A DNA stretch of 64,000 bases from positions 124,001 through 188,000 of the forward strand of contig LVAS01000059.1 in NCBI GenBank assembly GCA_001603035.1, read 5' to 3'. This document shows, piece by piece, positions 3,261-15,926 of the stretch (position 1 is its first letter; every line of letters starts with the position of its first letter). Source of the stretch: Clostridiales bacterium Firm_13 (lineage in GTDB: Bacteria > Bacillota > Clostridia > Saccharofermentanales > Saccharofermentanaceae). Under the pieces are notes generated by a model, which saw only the letters and a program-made list of their open reading frames with translations, was not told where the DNA came from and did no database searches. The position numbers and the translations under genes were made by a program.

Positions 3261-3797
3261 TTAAGCAAAGGAAGCGCCCTTATCAAATGCGTCCAGATTG
3301 GCAGGAATCATATGATGCCTTCTCTCGGGGAGAACATCGTAAAGAGCGGCTTCGAAAGAAGAACGACGAAAACAACTTGTCGACGCGGAAAGGCAACCGA
3401 GAAGGACAATCGTGGCATAAGCCATATTCCCGAGTTCATTCGCAATGTCGGAGGATTGAATCGGGATAAATCGGATATCGCTTCGCGTCGGCTTGATCTT
3501 TACAAGAGAGGAGTCGACAATTAGGATTCCGCCCGGCTTCACTTGCTTCTCGAATTTTTCGAGTGAGGGCTGATTCAGCGCGATCAGAACGTCCGCGTCA
3601 TTTATTACGGGAGAGCCGATCGCGGCGTCGGAAATGACAACCGAACAATTCGCCGTTCCGCCTCGCATCTCGGGACCGTATGACGGAAACCAAGATACCT
3701 CGTGCCCTTCGATCAAGGCCGCCTCGGCCGCCATTTTGCCGGCGGAAAGAATCCCTTGTCCGCCGAATCCTGCAATGATAACGGAAAAATCAATCAT
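3261..3797 (-). CDS. 2-oxoacid:ferredoxin oxidoreductase, gamma subunit
   Basis: 178 residues, matching the usual size of a stand-alone gamma subunit (KorC/VorC/PorG type). The N-terminus has the diagnostic GFGGQGILSAGKMAAEAA motif (~residues 10-27) and SYGPEMRGGTANC further on. It is the last of four genes ferredoxin-alpha-beta-gamma, and follows the beta gene by 4 bp. The complex oxidatively decarboxylates a 2-oxoacid to the acyl-CoA, reducing ferredoxin. Substrate (2-oxoglutarate, branched-chain 2-oxoacids or pyruvate) cannot be decided from sequence alone; the four-subunit layout with a short ferredoxin first is common for KorDABC and VorDABC. Confidence 0.93.
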   Translation of the reverse strand: MIDFSVIIAGFGGQGILSAGKMAAEAALIEGHEVSWFPSYGPEMRGGTANCSVVISDAAIGSPVINDADVLIALNQPSLEKFEKQVKPGGILIVDSSLVKIKPTRSDIRFIPIQSSDIANELGNMAYATIVLLGCLSASTSCFRRSSFEAALYDVLPERRHHMIPANLDAFDKGASFA

Positions 3798-3801
3798 CGC
3801 G

Positions 3802-4548
3802 TCACACCTCCAGATCCTTTCCCTTAAAAACGCCCAGCGGGTATTGCGGAATCATCGCCGATTCGAGCCAACGAAGCGACTCAACCGGCTCTTTGCCCCA
3901 GTTCGTCGGGCAGGTCGAAAGAAATTCGACCAGAGAAAAGCCGAGACCTTTCTCTTGTACCGCAAATGCTTTGGCGACCGCTTTCTTGGCTGTCTGGATA
4001 TTCTTGAAATTATTCATGGCGACACGTTCGATATAAACGGCGCCCGGAAGCGTCGCGAGAAGTTCGCTGACATTCATCGGATAACCCTGCAGCGCCGCAT
4101 CTCGGCCGAAAGGCGAAGTCGTTGTCACCTGTCCGAGAAGCGTCGTCGGCGCCATCTGTCCGCTTGTCATACCGTAGATCGCATTGTTAACAAAGAAGAC
4201 GGTGATTCTCTCGCCTCTTGCGGCGGAATGAAGAATCTCCGCAGCGCCGATCGATGCCAGATCCCCGTCGCCTTGGTACGTAAATACGAACTTATCCGGA
4301 TGAACACGCTTGACGCCGGTCGCGACCGCAGGAGCCCGGCCATGTGCCGCCTGCACCATATCGCACGAAAAATACTCGTAATTATTATATGTACATCCGA
4401 CGGAAGAGACACCGATCGTATCGTTCAAGATTCCCTTTTCACACATCGTCTCGGCGATAATTCTGTGAATAATTCCGTGTGTACAGCCGGGGCAATAATG
4501 AAACGGCTTGTCGAGAAGTCCTTCTGTCTTGTCAAACACAATCGCCAT
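3802..4548 (-). CDS. 2-oxoacid:ferredoxin oxidoreductase, beta (TPP-binding) subunit
   Basis: 248 residues. It shows the thiamine-diphosphate binding core of the family: CPGCTHG near residue 19-25, GDGDLASIG (~94-102) with the downstream NNAIYGMTSGQMAPTT, which is typical of KorB/VorB-beta proteins. The alpha gene stop (TAA) directly abuts this ATG, so translation is likely coupled. It forms the catalytic unit together with the alpha subunit and passes electrons to ferredoxin. The protein is cytoplasmic. Confidence 0.94.
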   Translation of the reverse strand: MAIVFDKTEGLLDKPFHYCPGCTHGIIHRIIAETMCEKGILNDTIGVSSVGCTYNNYEYFSCDMVQAAHGRAPAVATGVKRVHPDKFVFTYQGDGDLASIGAAEILHSAARGERITVFFVNNAIYGMTSGQMAPTTLLGQVTTTSPFGRDAALQGYPMNVSELLATLPGAVYIERVAMNNFKNIQTAKKAVAKAFAVQEKGLGFSLVEFLSTCPTNWGKEPVESLRWLESAMIPQYPLGVFKGKDLEV

Positions 4549-5622
4549 TTACTTCGCCTCCCCGTCGTGGATCGCGACGATGCGATCCAATATCTCTTTT
4601 TGCGTGGGCATATTTCCGCCCATGCGGCCAAGGAAATAGACCGGCTTCTGACCGTTCACGGCAAGACGGACATCTTCGACCATCTGCCCCGCGTTCAACT
4701 CGACGTCGAGAAACGCCTTGACGGAAGGAAGCGACGCCGCACGCGCGATTTCGGACGAAGGGAACGGCCAGAGTGTAATCGGACGAACCATGCCGACCTT
4801 AATCCCAAGTTCGGCCGCCTGCCGAATCACATTCTTACATATCCGGCTGCATGTTCCGAACGATGTGATCACAATTTCTGCGTCTTCTACATCCGTCGAC
4901 TCGTAACGGGTCTCCGCTTCGGCAACACGCGCGTATTTGATCTGCAGGTCGTTGTTCTTTCTCTCCAGATCGTCCGGCTCGATATAGATCGACGTAACGG
5001 TATTATGTTCCGTCCGGTCTCCCCGACCGGTCAGAGCCCAAGATTTATCGGTATCCTCTGTCGGTTCGCTCTCGCGGAAAAGAACCGGCTCCATCATCTG
5101 CCCGAGCGTGCCGTCTCCGAGAATCATCACGAGCATGCGATACCGATCCGCCAAATTGAAGGCTTCGACGGTCAATTCATAAAGCTCCTGTATCGATGCG
5201 GGAGCGACGACAATATTCTTATAATCGCCGTGTCCCCCGCCCTTGGTCGCCTGAAAATAGTCGCCCTGCGATGTCTGAATTCCGCCGAGCCCCGGGCCCG
5301 CGCGAACAATATTGACTACAACGGCGGGAAGTTCCGCGCCGGCGATGTAAGAAATACCTTCCTGCTTCAAGCTGATACCGGGCGAGGACGAGGAAGTCAG
5401 AGCACGCGCGCCGGCCGAAGCCGCGCCGTAGACCATATTTATCGCGGAAACCTCGCTTTCCGCCTGGACGAAAGCGCCGCCCACTTCGACCATTCTCTTT
5501 GCCATATAATGCATGATCTCAGTCTGGGGGGTGATCGGATACCCGAAATAATGACGGCATCCCGCTCGGATCGCCGCCTCCGCAATGACTTCATTCCCCT
5601 TCATCAGGACTTTCTTTGCCAT
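4549..5622 (-). CDS. 2-oxoacid:ferredoxin oxidoreductase, alpha subunit
   Basis: 357 residues, the usual length of KorA/VorB alpha subunits. Visible landmarks are the N-terminal GNEVIAEAAIRAGCRHYFGYPITPQTE, typical of the pyrimidine-binding domain, then SSPGISLKQEG and RAGPGLGGIQTSQGDY, and a C-terminal transketolase-C-like domain ending EILDRI. It follows the small ferredoxin gene by 15 bp. Proteins like this are often labelled 3-methyl-2-oxobutanoate dehydrogenase subunit VorB, but 2-oxoglutarate specificity is equally possible. Confidence 0.94.
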   Translation of the reverse strand: MAKKVLMKGNEVIAEAAIRAGCRHYFGYPITPQTEIMHYMAKRMVEVGGAFVQAESEVSAINMVYGAASAGARALTSSSSPGISLKQEGISYIAGAELPAVVVNIVRAGPGLGGIQTSQGDYFQATKGGGHGDYKNIVVAPASIQELYELTVEAFNLADRYRMLVMILGDGTLGQMMEPVLFRESEPTEDTDKSWALTGRGDRTEHNTVTSIYIEPDDLERKNNDLQIKYARVAEAETRYESTDVEDAEIVITSFGTCSRICKNVIRQAAELGIKVGMVRPITLWPFPSSEIARAASLPSVKAFLDVELNAGQMVEDVRLAVNGQKPVYFLGRMGGNMPTQKEILDRIVAIHDGEAK

Positions 5623-7070: not shown

Positions 7071-8360
7071 ATGATTGATATCAACCTAATTCGAAAGGAC
7101 CCCGAAGTTGTCAAGGCATCGATGAAGAAGCGTTTTCAAGAGAAGAAATTCGTTCTCGTCGACGAAGTGATCGATCTCGACAAGGAGTTTCGAGAGACAC
7201 GGACGCGATGCGATTTTCTGCGAAGCCAAAGAAATGCAATCAGCAAAGAGATCGGCAAATTGATGGGATCGGGACGTAGAGAAGAAGCGGAACTCGCCAA
7301 AGCGCAGGTCGGCGAAATGGCCGAAGAGCTTGAGCAATTGGCCGTTCGCGAGACGGAACTTACGGAGCAAATTCGCGTTCGCATGATGCAGATCCCGAAT
7401 ATCCTCGACGAGTCCGTTCCGATCGGACGGGATGATTCGGAAAATGTCGAAGTCGAGCGCTTCGGCGAACCCGCGGTCCCGGAGTACGAGATTCCGTATC
7501 ATGTCGATATTATGGAGAAGTTGAACGGAATCGATCTTGACAGCGCGAGAAAGACCAGCGGGAACGGGTTCTACTACCTGATGGGCGATATCGCCCGCTT
7601 ACATTCCGCTATTCTGTCTTATGCCAGAGACTTTATGATTGATCGGGGCTTCACCTATTGTGTACCCCCTTTCATGATTCGGAGTTCCGTCGTAACCGGC
7701 GTTATGAGTTTTGCCGAAATGGAAAACATGATGTACAAGATCGAAGGCGAGGATCTCTATCTGATCGGTACGAGCGAGCACTCGATGATCGGCAAATTCA
7801 TCGATACGATTCTCGACGAGAGCCGCCTCCCGCAAACACTGACAAGCTATTCTCCTTGTTTCCGAAAGGAAGTCGGCGCGCATGGAATCGAAGAGCGCGG
7901 CGTTTACCGGATCCATCAATTTGAAAAGCAGGAGATGATCGTCGTCTGCAAGCCGGAAGAAAGTAAGGATTGGTTTGTTAAGCTCTACACGAATACGGTC
8001 GATTTCTTCCGGACCCTTGATATTCCGGTACGAACCCTTGAGTGTTGTTCGGGAGATCTAGCCGACCTCAAAGTCAAGAGTATCGACGTTGAGGCGTGGT
8101 CTCCTCGTCAGAAGAAGTACTTTGAAGTCGGAAGCTGCAGTAATCTTGGTGACGCGCAAGCAAGACGTCTCGCCATCCGCGCCAAGGGTAAGGACTCCGG
8201 AACCTATTTCCCTCATACATTAAACAATACGGTCGTTGCGCCGCCGCGTATGCTGATCGCCTTTCTCGAAAACAATATGAACGCCGACGGATCCATCCGA
8301 ATCCCGGAAGCGCTCCGCATTTACATGGGAATGAAGAAGACAATCGATGTTCCCGTTTGA
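7071..8360 (+). CDS. serS: Seryl-tRNA synthetase
   Basis: 429 residues, the normal bacterial length. The first ~110 residues are the coiled-coil arm that binds the long variable arm of tRNA-Ser. The class II catalytic domain follows, with TSEHSMIG, the motif 2 stretch FRKEVGAHG...GVYRIHQFEKQE and the motif 3 region ending NNTVVAPPRMLIAFLENN. It charges tRNA-Ser (and tRNA-Sec where present) in the cytoplasm. Expression is expected to be controlled by the T-box in its 5' leader. Confidence 0.98.
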   Translation: MIDINLIRKDPEVVKASMKKRFQEKKFVLVDEVIDLDKEFRETRTRCDFLRSQRNAISKEIGKLMGSGRREEAELAKAQVGEMAEELEQLAVRETELTEQIRVRMMQIPNILDESVPIGRDDSENVEVERFGEPAVPEYEIPYHVDIMEKLNGIDLDSARKTSGNGFYYLMGDIARLHSAILSYARDFMIDRGFTYCVPPFMIRSSVVTGVMSFAEMENMMYKIEGEDLYLIGTSEHSMIGKFIDTILDESRLPQTLTSYSPCFRKEVGAHGIEERGVYRIHQFEKQEMIVVCKPEESKDWFVKLYTNTVDFFRTLDIPVRTLECCSGDLADLKVKSIDVEAWSPRQKKYFEVGSCSNLGDAQARRLAIRAKGKDSGTYFPHTLNNTVVAPPRMLIAFLENNMNADGSIRIPEALRIYMGMKKTIDVPV

Positions 8361-8438: not shown

Positions 8439-9293
8439 CTATCCCAGCATCGCCGCCGAGACGAAGACAAGAATTCCGCCGCCGATAAAACTTAGCGCGT
8501 TCGCGGCGAAGGTATAGCCGATGACGGTCAATTTGGGGTACTTCCGAAGCAGAAACAGGTAGGCGATCATCTCCAAAATAAGGATTACCACTTCGACCGG
8601 AATATAAATGAACAACGCAAACATCATGGAAATATTCGTCAGTGCCCACCCAAGCGCAATGGTCAGAAGAATTTGCGTTGCCAGATTGACGAGGACGACC
8701 TTAAGCCAGTTCTTCTTAAAGTCCATTCCGAACGGAATAAAGAGCAGAAGCTCGATAACAAGGGTCGGAATCAACGTCGTAAAAAACTGAATCGCGTATC
8801 TCTCCGCGATTGTCGTCTGCGATACAACACCCGTCTCGCAATCAAAGGAAATCTGTTCGTCAAAAGCGGCCTTTCGAATCTCAGGCGACACAATCACCCG
8901 CAGATCTTCCGTGACGACGATGACCTTGTATGCGTCGGGAACGCCCATATAGCTCACCGTATAGCGAGTCGTACTCACGCCAAAGGCGGCGTCTTGCACC
9001 GGCGATCCATAGAGTCTCGCATGCCAGCCATCGACATTATAGTTGACCAGCTTGGCGAGCATGTCCGGATTATACTGATCCTTTTCGTCGGCGACGGTCT
9101 TCCATGAGCCGCTGTCTTCCTTCCAAAGAATGTCAACATAATATGTGCCGGAAGGCGGATTCGTAAGGTTAACCGTAATCGACGGCTTCGGTCCCATATC
9201 TGCCGAAACGGATTGCCCGAAGAAAAAGAGAACAGAAACCAACATAATCCCTACATAAAGAACACGCGTCCATCGTTTCCTTGATTCGGTCAT
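8439..9293 (-). CDS. Membrane protein of unknown function with an exported N-terminal domain
   Basis: 284 residues, not assigned to a named family. Residues 1-31 look like a cleavable signal peptide (hydrophobic LYVGIMLVSVLFFFG, then SVSA). The mature protein starts DMGPKPSITVNL, a pattern seen in uncharacterised clostridial membrane proteins. Residues ~32-165 form an exported beta-rich domain, and ~165-284 contain four or five membrane segments, with a basic loop KKNWLK between the first two. The ATG at 9291-9293 follows a GGAGG. The gene stands alone between the serS terminator and the repeat array. Confidence 0.75.
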   Translation of the reverse strand: MTESRKRWTRVLYVGIMLVSVLFFFGQSVSADMGPKPSITVNLTNPPSGTYYVDILWKEDSGSWKTVADEKDQYNPDMLAKLVNYNVDGWHARLYGSPVQDAAFGVSTTRYTVSYMGVPDAYKVIVVTEDLRVIVSPEIRKAAFDEQISFDCETGVVSQTTIAERYAIQFFTTLIPTLVIELLLFIPFGMDFKKNWLKVVLVNLATQILLTIALGWALTNISMMFALFIYIPVEVVILILEMIAYLFLLRKYPKLTVIGYTFAANALSFIGGGILVFVSAAMLG

Positions 9294-9363: not shown

Positions 9364-9431
9364 CTTTTCTTTACTTTTTCACATATTCATAGCGGATTAG
9401 AATCGGGCATAAAGGCGTGGGGAGAATTGGC

Positions 9432-10760
9432 GACGCGTGAGTGTGTCGATCGCGATTGGATTACCACACTGATCGACGAAAGGTGCATTCTGTGTGGTAA
9501 TCGGCACGGCATAGGCGGCAATCGGAGACGCGTGAGTGCGTCGATCTGGATAAAATTACCACACAGGCCGACGGGAAGTGCATTCTGTGTGGTAATCGGC
9601 ACGGCATAGGCGGCAATCGGAGACGCGTCGGCGTGTCGATCGCGATTGTATTACCACACAGACCGACGAAAGGTGCATTCTGTGTGGTAATCGGCACGGC
9701 ATAGGCGGCAATCGGAGACACGCGAACGCGTCGATCTGGATTAAATTACCACACAGGCCGACGGGAAGTGCATTCTGTGTGGTAATCGGCACAGCATAGG
9801 CGGCAATCGGAGACGCGTGAACGCGTCGATCTGGATAAAATTACCACACAGATTGTTGGAAAGTATGTTCTGTGTGGTAATGGACAGGTGTGGGACGTCA
9901 TCGGAGACGCGTAAGTGCGTCGATCAAGCTTGGATTACCACACAAATCGACGAAAAGCTCATTCTGTGTGGTAATCGGCACGGCATAGGCGGCAATCGGA
10001 GACGCGTGAACTCGTCGATCTGGATAAAATACCACACAGATTGCTGGAAAGTATGTTCTGTGTGGTAATGGACAGGCGTGGATCGTCATCGGAGACGCGT
10101 GAGTGCGACTATCAAGCTTGGATTACCACACAGATCGACGAAAAGCGCATTCTGTGTGGTAATCGGCACGGCATAGGCGGCAATCGGAGACGCGTCGGCG
10201 TGTCGATCGCGATTGGATTACCACACTGATCGACGAAAGGTGCATTCTGTGTGGTAATCGGCACGGCATATGCGGCAATCGGAGACGTGTCGGCGTGTCG
10301 ATCGCGATTGGATTACCACACAGATCGACGAAAGGTGCATTCTGTGTGGTAATTGACAGGCGTGGATCGTCATCGGAGACGCGTAAACGCGTCGATCAAG
10401 CTCAGATTACCACACAGGCCGACGGGAAGTGCATTCTGTGTGGTAATCGGCTTGGCAAATGCTCCATTGGAGACGCGCGAACGCGTCGATCAAGCTCGGA
10501 TTACCTCCAAGATTGGTAGAAGGTGTGATTTTGGAGGTAATCGGCTTGGCTAAGGCTCCATCGGATGCGCGCGAACGCGTCGATCAAGCTCGGATTACCT
10601 CCATGATTGGCAGGAGGTGTGATTTTGGAGGCAAGCGGCTTGGCTATGGCTCCGTCGGAGTCGCATGAACGCGTCGATCAAGCTTGGATTACCTCCAAGA
10701 TTGGCAGAAAGTGTGGTTTTGGAGGTAATCGTCAGCCAAGACCCCTCTTCGGAGACGCGT
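9432..10760. repeat. Tandem array of 14 units of ~95 bp, each with two hairpins; function unknown
   Basis: The whole gap between two minus-strand genes is filled by units starting at 9432, 9527, 9622, 9717, 9812, 9906, 10001, 10094, 10189, 10284, 10378, 10472, 10564 and 10660, ending with a half unit at 10754. Each unit has hairpin A (GACGCG-TGAA-CGCGTC and variants), then hairpin B with 12-14 bp arms (GATTACCACACAGA / TCTGTGTGGTAATC) around a ~16-nt purine-rich loop containing GAAAGGTG or a relative. The last three units carry different but still complementary arms (ATTACCTCCAA / TTGGAGGTAAT). Unit length 92-95 is mostly not a multiple of three, so no frame runs through: the array is not protein-coding. 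Linkers and loops occur in a few shuffled versions. No known repeat class was recognised. Confidence 0.93.
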
Positions 10761-10881: not shown

Positions 10882-11376
10882 TCAGAGTTCCTTCTCGTAT
10901 GCGACGAAACGATGGCCGTACCTGTCACATTCGGCAATGCTTTTGTATCCTGCCTTGTCATACGTTTGGCAGGCGGGGAGGTTGGCGCGCGCGGCAAGGA
11001 GATGGACGGCGGCGACGCCTCTCTCCTTAAGAAGTCGCTCAATTTTGCCGATCATGTGGCGGGCGAGCCCTTGGCCCTGATAGTCGGGTGCCACGGCTAC
11101 GCGCGCAATTTCGGCGATCTCGGTGCCCCGGAAGGACCAGAATGATAGGTCGTCGAGTTCGTTTTCGGGCACAACGGAGATTGCTCCGATGATATTCGCA
11201 TCCTTGCGAAGTACGAACAAGTTGTCGCCGGCGAGGTCGGATTGGATTTCGTTTTTGCCGGGATAGGAAGCGTCCCAGATGCAATATTCACTGCCGATTA
11301 CTGCACGATACAGTGCCAGGATTTTGTCCGCGTCGTCGAAGCGGGCGACGCCAAAGAGATACGGCAAGTCTGTCAT
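10882..11376 (-). CDS. GNAT family N-acetyltransferase
   Basis: 164 residues, typical of a single GNAT domain. The acetyl-CoA binding motif A is visible as VAPDYQGQGLARHMIGKIE (~residues 92-110), followed by AVHLLAARANLPACQTYDKAGYKSIAECD, the usual motif B. The ATG follows GGAGG. The acceptor substrate cannot be inferred. It lies between the repeat array and a solute-binding lipoprotein gene. Confidence 0.88.
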   Translation of the reverse strand: MTDLPYLFGVARFDDADKILALYRAVIGSEYCIWDASYPGKNEIQSDLAGDNLFVLRKDANIIGAISVVPENELDDLSFWSFRGTEIAEIARVAVAPDYQGQGLARHMIGKIERLLKERGVAAVHLLAARANLPACQTYDKAGYKSIAECDRYGHRFVAYEKEL

Positions 11377-14164: not shown

Positions 14165-14440
14165 CAAATGCGTTGATCTTTGTTGGATTGCCATATGGAT
14201 CAGCGAAAAGCGCTTTCTGTGTGGTAATCGGTGGTCACGTGGCGGTTATTGTGACGCGTGACCGCGACGATCAAGCTTGGATTACCTCTAAGATTGGCAG
14301 AAGGTGTGATTTTGGAGGTAATCGGCTTGGCTAAGGCTCCATCGGAGACGCGTGAAAGCGTCGAACGCGCCCTGATAACCACGCAGATGGTCTGCATTTT
14401 CTTTCTGTGTGGTAATCGACAGGCGCGCGTTCAATCGCCC
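14165..14440. repeat. Three decayed copies of the two-hairpin repeat family
   Basis: The same unit type as in the 9432-10760 array reappears about 3.4 kb away in the same orientation. The middle copy (~14262-14350), with the arms ATTACCTCTAA / TTGGAGGTAAT and the linker CGGCTTGGCTAAGGCTCCATCGGA, is nearly identical to the unit at ~10495-10570. The flanking two copies have mismatched arms (GATTGCCATATGGA / TCTGTGTGGTAATC; GATAACCACGCAGA / TCTGTGTGGTAATC). Confidence 0.88.
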
Positions 14441-14609: not shown

Positions 14610-15926
14610 TTAGGGCTGCGGCTTCCCACATTCAGAGCAGAATTTGCCGGTATTTCCGGTCGCGCCGCAAGAGCACGTCCACCCTTCCGAAGGCTTCGGC
14701 TTGCCGCACTCGGCACAGAACTTCCCCGTATTGCCGGTCGCTCCGCACGAGCAGGTCCACCCGGCCGAAGGCTTCGGCTTGCCGCATTCGGCGCAGAACT
14801 TACCTGTATTACCGCTATGCCCGCAAGAGCATGTCCATCCGCCCGCGCTTGCCGCGACGGCTGCCGCTCCGGCGGCGACAGGGGCCGCAGAGGCCGCAGC
14901 AGAGTTCATGGGGTTCGGCATCCCGCCGCCCTGTGCCGCCATATTCAGCATTCCGACTCCGGCAAAACCTGTAACCGCGCCGCTCGCATTGGATCCCGCA
15001 TTCTTATATGCATCCGTCATTCCCATTGTGGCATACGTTGATGCGAGGTCGCCGTCTTTATAATTGCGAATTCTGGTAACTTCGTCGATACGTGCCTGCG
15101 ACTTCTCGTCGGGCGAAACGGGATTGATACCGACGGCGATAATCTCGATTCCGCGATTCTGCATCCAGTCTTCATCAAGAACCGTTTCCAGTTCTTTCTT
15201 GATATCCATCTGATAGGTAGGAATCTGCGAGAAAAAGATATTCTTCCCGCCTTCGCCAAAGCGATTAATCGCGGGGGAAAGCGCGGTCAGGAACTCGGTG
15301 CGCAGTTGTGTGTCTGTGAAGGGGTTCCGATTGAATGTGTCACCGACCGTACCGGAAATATTCTCAAAGAATGTAATCGGGTTCTTGATCTTGTAGGTAT
15401 ATGTGCCGTTGACGCGGATGTTGATACTCTTAAACTCCGGGTCGCGGTACGGAATCGGCGTCGGCGTTCCGAAAGTGTTCCCGGTAATTTCGAGAAGGTT
15501 CACAAAATACACTCGCTGTTCGGAGTTAACTACGCCGGCCGTCTTAAAACGGTCGAGAATGAGGCTCATCGACTTCTTGAAGCCTTCTTTAATGCCTTCA
15601 CTGGCAAGCATGGAAGGTGCCGAGGAAGAATCCCAAACGTAGAGGCCGGGTTCTGTCGTAAAGTCCGTTACCTTTCCGTTGTCCACAAGAAGAAGTGCCG
15701 TCCCTGTCGGAACCGCGATTCGGGAGCCGTTCGTTATGACGTCGGAATCGCCCTTATTGCTGCCGTTCTTGACTTTACGGGCACCTCTCTTAACGAGCGT
15801 ATCGCGATCGAGCGCATCTCCCGTAAAGAACTCCTGATACTGATCCTTGAATACGGAAGAAATCGACTCGGCACCGGCCGAGAAAACATTCTGTGTCGCA
15901 CCTGTTATCGCACTGATAAGTCCCAT
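14610..15926 (-). CDS. SPFH-domain protein with three C-terminal zinc ribbons (YdjI-like)
   Basis: 438 residues. The N-terminal ~300 residues form an SPFH/band-7-like domain of the YdjI type (VPTGTALLLVDNGKVTDFTTEPGLYVWD; RVYFVNLLEITGNTFGTPTPIPYRD). An Ala/Gly-rich linker follows (~315-362). Three near-identical 26-residue repeats at ~363-388, 389-414 and 415-438 each read GWTCSCGxxGNTGKFCxECGKP, with four Cys each, so three tandem zinc ribbons; they are also tandem repeats in the DNA. The start follows AGGAGG. In Bacillus the ydjGHI genes pair an SPFH protein with Tim44-like and zinc-ribbon partners, as here. The role is unproven; envelope-stress or membrane-organising functions are suggested for the family. 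Confidence 0.88.
   Translation of the reverse strand: MGLISAITGATQNVFSAGAESISSVFKDQYQEFFTGDALDRDTLVKRGARKVKNGSNKGDSDVITNGSRIAVPTGTALLLVDNGKVTDFTTEPGLYVWDSSSAPSMLASEGIKEGFKKSMSLILDRFKTAGVVNSEQRVYFVNLLEITGNTFGTPTPIPYRDPEFKSINIRVNGTYTYKIKNPITFFENISGTVGDTFNRNPFTDTQLRTEFLTALSPAINRFGEGGKNIFFSQIPTYQMDIKKELETVLDEDWMQNRGIEIIAVGINPVSPDEKSQARIDEVTRIRNYKDGDLASTYATMGMTDAYKNAGSNASGAVTGFAGVGMLNMAAQGGGMPNPMNSAAASAAPVAAGAAAVAASAGGWTCSCGHSGNTGKFCAECGKPKPSAGWTCSCGATGNTGKFCAECGKPKPSEGWTCSCGATGNTGKFCSECGKPQP

Follow-up and report, generated by a model that had tools for sequence, protein, structure and literature searches.

The 14-unit tandem array described here is, in our judgment, somewhat more probably than not a cluster of binding sites in double-stranded DNA that forms part of a REPtron-like gene-plus-dyad system, and not an RNA gene. 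We put at about even the chance of the wider proposal, a new class of gene-plus-repeat system in which each PD-(D/E)XK-like paralogue recognises its own phased dyad, maintains an array of it ahead of its gene and seeds others along the chromosome, with specificities that change rapidly between species. If this is true, the system would be a REPtron analogue without a transposase, and the array in the window (the whole 64,000-nucleotide stretch of DNA that was analysed) would be its dispersed part, carrying dyad types A and B. The dispersal of the arrays, the sibling stem types and the tie to a gene family in relatives lay beyond the view of the initial annotation of this DNA.

Structure of the Window Array

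The head-to-tail array of 14 units that had been annotated is real, as established by TRF, pattern search and direct reading (Table 1). TRF places it at 9425-10731 with a period of 94-95, and detects inside it a higher-order period of 472 bp (5 units). Shuffles never reproduce the array, and ATTACCACACAGA, allowing up to two mismatches, has 25 matches in the window, where 0.51 would be expected; 100 shuffles gave 2 at most.

Each unit combines a 16-nt small hairpin with a 42-bp dyad. The small hairpin ascribed to every unit is present in 14/14, with its centre 41 bp from that of the dyad in 13 of them; the remaining unit has 40 bp. The hairpin centre lies 53-54 bp past the previous dyad centre and 40-41 bp ahead of its own dyad's, such that the distances to the neighbouring dyads correspond to about 3.9 and 5.1 helical turns. 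The large hairpin that had also been ascribed to each unit needs amendment: all 14 units contain a dyad, but the stem originally quoted occurs in only 11, because units 12-14 carry the type-B stem.

Array 1 sits between two co-directional minus-strand genes, and promoter-like and terminator-like sites around it occur at chance level only. CRISPR, attC and coding identities were rightly set aside at the outset; a CRISPR array is rejected because the linkers of the window array are themselves repeated and are not unique spacers. Two neighbouring genes have peculiarities of their own. A 78-bp tandem repeat encodes three near-identical zinc-ribbon-like repeats at the C-terminus of an SPFH/Band 7 protein, and the window SerRS is 74-80% identical to that of many other Clostridia and only 32-35% identical to those of family relatives. 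This SerRS is possibly a second lineage or a transfer, or the contig may be chimeric. Since its lineage is unlike that of its family, it yielded no synteny with relatives.

Table 1. Positions of the array components, neighbouring genes and other features (window coordinates unless a locus or genome is named).
Feature	Position	Strand	Description
Array 1	9432-10760	+	14 head-to-tail units (92-95 bp), 11 type-A and 3 type-B dyads; TRF and dyad scan
Type-A block	9460-10447	+	11 dyads ATTACCACACAG-N18-CTGTGTGGTAAT; starts 9460, 9555, 9650, 9745, 9840, 9934, 10028, 10122, 10217, 10312, 10406
Type-B block	10500-10729	+	3 dyads ATTACCTCCAAG-N18-TTTGGAGGTAAT; starts 10500, 10594, 10688
Small hairpins	9432-10675	+	n = 14, consensus GACGCGTGAACGCGTC, one per unit
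Array 2	14187-14416	+	Three dyads at 94-bp spacing (14187-14228 A-like; 14281-14322 B; 14375-14416 degenerate A) and two small hairpins (14253, 14347)
284-aa protein gene	8439-9293	-	No Pfam match; start 139 bp from array 1
GNAT acetyltransferase gene	10882-11376	-	Stop about 120 bp from array 1
SerRS gene	7071-8360		
SPFH/Band 7 protein gene	14610-15926		
78-bp tandem repeat	14638-14845		Within the SPFH/Band 7 gene
Large edge palindrome (approximate)	L025, about 4900-5050; L022, about 3700-3850; L028, about 4280-4370		
Long open frames with nuclease-like domain	G093:C41:993-1280; G070:C27:5800-6144		

A Dyad Superfamily with Several Stem Types

The window belongs to an assembly of 1.68 Mb in 67 contigs that is 81% complete. 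This genome holds about 15 arrays of the superfamily, scattered over intergenic positions, and the 95-bp unit has 52 matches across more than 10 contigs. Several of these matches lie close to contig ends, and thus the arrays probably break the assembly. The large “hairpin” of the superfamily is a dyad of 38-42 bp that occurs as stem types A, B and C on a common framework. The half-sites are ATTACCACACAG for type A, ATTACCTCCAAG for type B and GTACCTACTAAA for type C, the last read at other loci of the genome. All three share the outer TACC/GGTA, and their loops resemble each other, whereas their inner stems are wholly different. Covariation in the A/B/C alignment is 0.485, versus 0.172 +/- 0.017 for shuffled alignments and at most 0.108 when the alignment is slid. 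Composite blocks are found in which A is followed by B, or in which A occurs with C. A further large palindrome of this genome, GGATCCTCGGGAG(T)AAATTTCTCC...GGAGAAATTTCTCCCGAGGATCC, is often located at array edges.

Arrays Probably Act as DNA Rather Than RNA

Four results support reading the arrays as double-stranded DNA and not as RNA. The initial annotation had read a G-U bias in the small hairpin as a hint of a plus-strand transcript. The bias exists in the window alone (9 G-U versus 2 A-C), where the excess arises because related units share a change, but genome-wide the counts are 10 versus 9. Likewise, one-sided changes in the large-stem core over all loci amount to 19 versus 16 cells for G-U by hand count. 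Single-sided stem changes therefore show no strand bias over all loci, and plus-strand RNA was rejected on this negative genome-wide wobble test. The dyad axis is A/T in 110/110 cells from relatives and 94% A/T over 15 other half-site families. It reads AAAA or TTTT on either strand, as expected of double-stranded DNA and not of an RNA loop. The helix-quantised spacing of the units, which is kept although linkers have diverged, also speaks against a transcript. So does the CtsR locus, the one well-resolved comparative case, where the arrays follow a terminator, precede the next promoter and lie outside transcription units.

A structured non-coding RNA made from the plus strand would suit the stable folding and the covariation of the stems. 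However, the minus strand folds at least equally well relative to its own shuffles (z = -4.4 for the plus strand and -5.9 for the minus strand of a two-unit stretch), and the AAAA and TTTT tracts swap freely at the axis. The Rfam check suggested earlier yielded nothing at gathering threshold for the array (best weak match E = 0.33), which leaves the RNA reading without an Rfam family. We regard this reading as very improbable.

Dyads Are Spaced by Whole Helical Turns

Neighbouring dyads of the window genome stand 63-64, 84 or 94-95 bp apart, and those of relatives mainly 51-53, 62-63 or 73-75 bp. Spacing values within one locus are not independent; the phasing statistics use one value per half-site family. 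For 25 array-family spacings, R is 0.69 at 10.5 bp with a best period of 10.4, and 0/100000 jittered spacing sets reach the observed R. The best period is 10.4-10.65 bp, with R about 0.7-0.8 and p about 1e-4 or less. In an independent set, restricting the analysis to arrays of three or more dyads yields R = 0.96 (n = 5), and the phasing p value is only 0.03 when doubtful two-dyad cases are included. Because the unit spacing equals whole helical turns, all dyads are placed on the same face of the DNA, and cooperative binding is possible.

Conservation and Turnover in Related Genomes

The 95-bp unit has no BLAST match in 57 relatives, and the exact type-A palindrome is absent among 84,980 species genomes, a set from which the window's own records were possibly left out. 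Two covariance models of the superfamily, R1 and R2, reach further. With R1, members of the superfamily are detected in further genera of the taxonomic family to which the window genome belongs; R2 is positive in 20/115 genomes of that family and in 0/398 others from the phylum (the phylum-wide R2 set holds 399 genomes including that of the window, the sole match there).

In relatives the half-site is TACC-N-ACTAAA, near-invariant except at position 5 (T, C or G), which is identical between both arms in 42/44 dyads. The arms are kept while a 145-bp linker has diverged between species (L148/L152 versus L154), and L153/L158 exhibit one base pair that is substituted on both sides. Dyad units in relatives are also found 74 bp apart with diverged linkers.

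Turnover is seen between DUF1846 and CtsR, where species with 96-100% identical DUF1846 differ in dyad type or have no dyads. The dyads at this site follow the DUF1846 terminator and precede the CtsR promoter TTGACA, both read from sequence. In these intergenic regions (L205-L212, L216), other species have unrelated dyads of the AGTACGGCTA, CCCAAAT, TGCAATT and GTCCTC types, and some of these dyads also have A/T tracts at the axis.

Array-flanking genes were found to have no common function, and no insertion with target duplication was seen at the arrays. A search of viral contigs found no TACCTACTAAA dyads, and the papers listed by a literature search for the half-site letters were all unrelated.

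A Nuclease-Like Gene Family Accompanies Dyads in Relatives

In two relatives an array ends directly upstream of a gene whose product is 267 aa long (P0001, P0002). Many genomes of genus g2 encode 7-14 paralogues of the P0001 family. A P0001-like orthologue (at least 56% identity) is present in 6/6 tested g2 genomes with abundant TACCNACTAAA dyads and in 0/10 tested genomes outside the R2 positives, three of which are equally close by DUF1846. By arithmetic this co-occurrence has a chance of 1 in 8008, a value uncorrected for relatedness.

An array of a gene's own dyad type lies upstream of 15/25 family genes and downstream of 1/25; the upstream rule holds for 0 cases in shuffles and 1/207 random windows. 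Among 20 further genes, an independent set examined only once the rule was fixed, 10 have an array upstream and none downstream (p = 2e-4). About half of the family genes have no array by the strict rule. The TCTACTAAA dyad beside one gene of genome G021, when searched genome-wide, is present in 14 copies at 5 loci of G021 and absent from 11 others.

One paralogue in G003 (L232) has a TTTATATCAGGTG-type dyad array downstream of its gene instead of upstream. Genome G006 has TACCCACTAAA dyads (L147), yet TACCTACTAAA dyads stand upstream of its P0001 orthologue, and a second close P0001 orthologue was not found in this genome. The TACCCACTAAA dyads are possibly relics of an older specificity.

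The protein family has no real match in Pfam, NCBIfam or PHROGs, and sequence comparison with the PDB yielded none. The C-terminal half matches the end of the PADLOC candidate PDC-S68 (1e-24), and a paralogue matches HEAT_CxxC_PD-DEXK (2e-8). A structure model of the protein has a pLDDT of 91, and the Foldseek list for this model has mostly restriction-endonuclease-like folds on top, none below E = 0.001. RSKSE, PDF and EH are invariant in the family (E163, PD194, EH209), but conservation does not extend to the canonical K of (D/E)XK. With this residue out of place and no fold match below the E value given above, catalysis is uncertain. The matches that the protein has among viruses, phages and plasmids were set aside as distant domain matches. 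Open frames of about 1212-1221 aa, matching PDC-S68 candidates in length, also contain the domain (Table 1).

Relation of Types A and B to the Gene Family

Type C (TACCTACTAAA) is the half-site found in front of the nuclease-like gene in G006 and G086. Half-sites A and B adjoin such a gene at none of the loci examined; types A and B appear linked to the gene system by their architecture and by the arrays they share with C at other places of the genome. A homologue of the nuclease-like gene is not detectable in the 81% complete assembly of the window genome, and none was found in its sister species or was detectable in G011, though dyads are present there. In G005 the homologue is located at the very start of a contig, a position that fits assembly loss of such loci.

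Proposed Mechanism and Alternatives

Among the three roles offered by the initial annotation, the evidence favours a protein-binding satellite and tells against a structured RNA. Cognate arrays directly in front of nuclease-like genes in relatives make the arrays look like landing sites of a new system of protein and repeats. A dyad consists of two inverted half-sites of 10-12 bp (outer core TACC..GGTA) around an A/T-rich axis, and the nuclease-like protein might bind the dyads beside its gene as a dimer and autoregulate through those upstream. If dyads were nicked or cut, subsequent recombination could expand arrays and seed new ones. Gene and dyads would then resemble a REPtron (RAYT plus REP) in behaviour, with an unrelated enzyme in place of the RAYT. 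Each of the types A, B and C may once have had a cognate protein, which either has been lost or is not included in the incomplete assembly.

The arrays could instead be operators only, bound by a family of DNA-binding proteins that control their own genes and nearby ones, and growing by ordinary duplication, with nothing mobile or cut. Their position directly upstream of presumed regulator genes and just upstream of the CtsR promoter would be natural for operators, and phased dyads suit cooperative binding. We nevertheless consider this unlikely, given that the genes flanking arrays have no common function, that one orthologous site holds unrelated dyad types or none, that composite blocks and up to 14 copies exceed what an operator needs, and that the partner has a nuclease-like domain. 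Unequal crossing-over and slippage could also generate a neutral satellite that no protein binds, and the 472-bp higher-order period does suggest unequal duplication. However, arms that stay constant while the 145-bp linker diverges between species, exact spacing despite diverging linkers, and the tie to one gene family render a neutral origin improbable.

Classical REP/BIME elements moved by RAYT (TnpA_REP, a Y1 transposase) are likewise small, intergenic, species-specific palindromes in mosaic blocks. This explanation is extremely improbable here. Y1_Tnp is absent in 8/10 tested dyad-rich genomes and divergent or fragmentary in the other two, G066 and G086 (PF01797 also has 0 matches in G000), and full-length Y1_Tnp copies sit in genomes that do not have these dyads. 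Moreover, the GTAG or CGTC tag that would adjoin a short-loop stem is missing.

Comparison with Known Systems

Dispersed bacterial extragenic palindromes are today explained mainly by RAYT/HUH transposases. The palindrome family of the present study goes with another type of protein, so far undescribed, that has numerous paralogues in each genome; every paralogue has a site of its own, and the DNA helix sets the array geometry. If our proposal is right, these genomes supply about two dozen natural protein-DNA specificity pairs for study, and the spread and function of palindromic repeats become testable outside REP/RAYT. It would also account for a group of repeats at which assemblies of these gut-type Clostridia are prone to break.

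The arrays share with REP/REPIN/BIME and RAYT systems the use of short, extragenic, species-specific palindromes in mosaic multi-copy arrays, and with REPtrons a dedicated gene next to its cognate repeats (here, in relatives). REP elements carry a GTAG or CGTC tetranucleotide tag at one stem end (PMC3733652). In contrast, the dyad alignments contain no unpaired tag of this kind, the dyads being symmetric (TACC..GGTA), with 14-18 bp between the arms and helically phased spacing. The associated protein, unlike RAYT, is nuclease-like and unrelated to Y1 HUH transposases. Two defining REP/RAYT features are therefore absent, and the system works like a REPtron but is not one. PDC-S68, a PADLOC phage defence candidate encoded by a single gene of about 1200 aa, is homologous over its C-terminal ~120 residues. 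Here, however, the domain resides in a separate protein of ~265 aa that has an N-terminal region of its own and a dyad array upstream of its gene.

Mitochondrial double-hairpin elements have two hairpins per mobile unit, and each unit of the window array likewise has two. The organisms and sequences differ from those of the present arrays, and these elements are not known to have helical phasing or a partner gene. Plasmid iteron and centromere arrays and operator arrays consist of binding-site repeats in helical register that are bound cooperatively. Unlike these, the present arrays are chromosomal, occupy about 15 dispersed sites and mix several dyad types.
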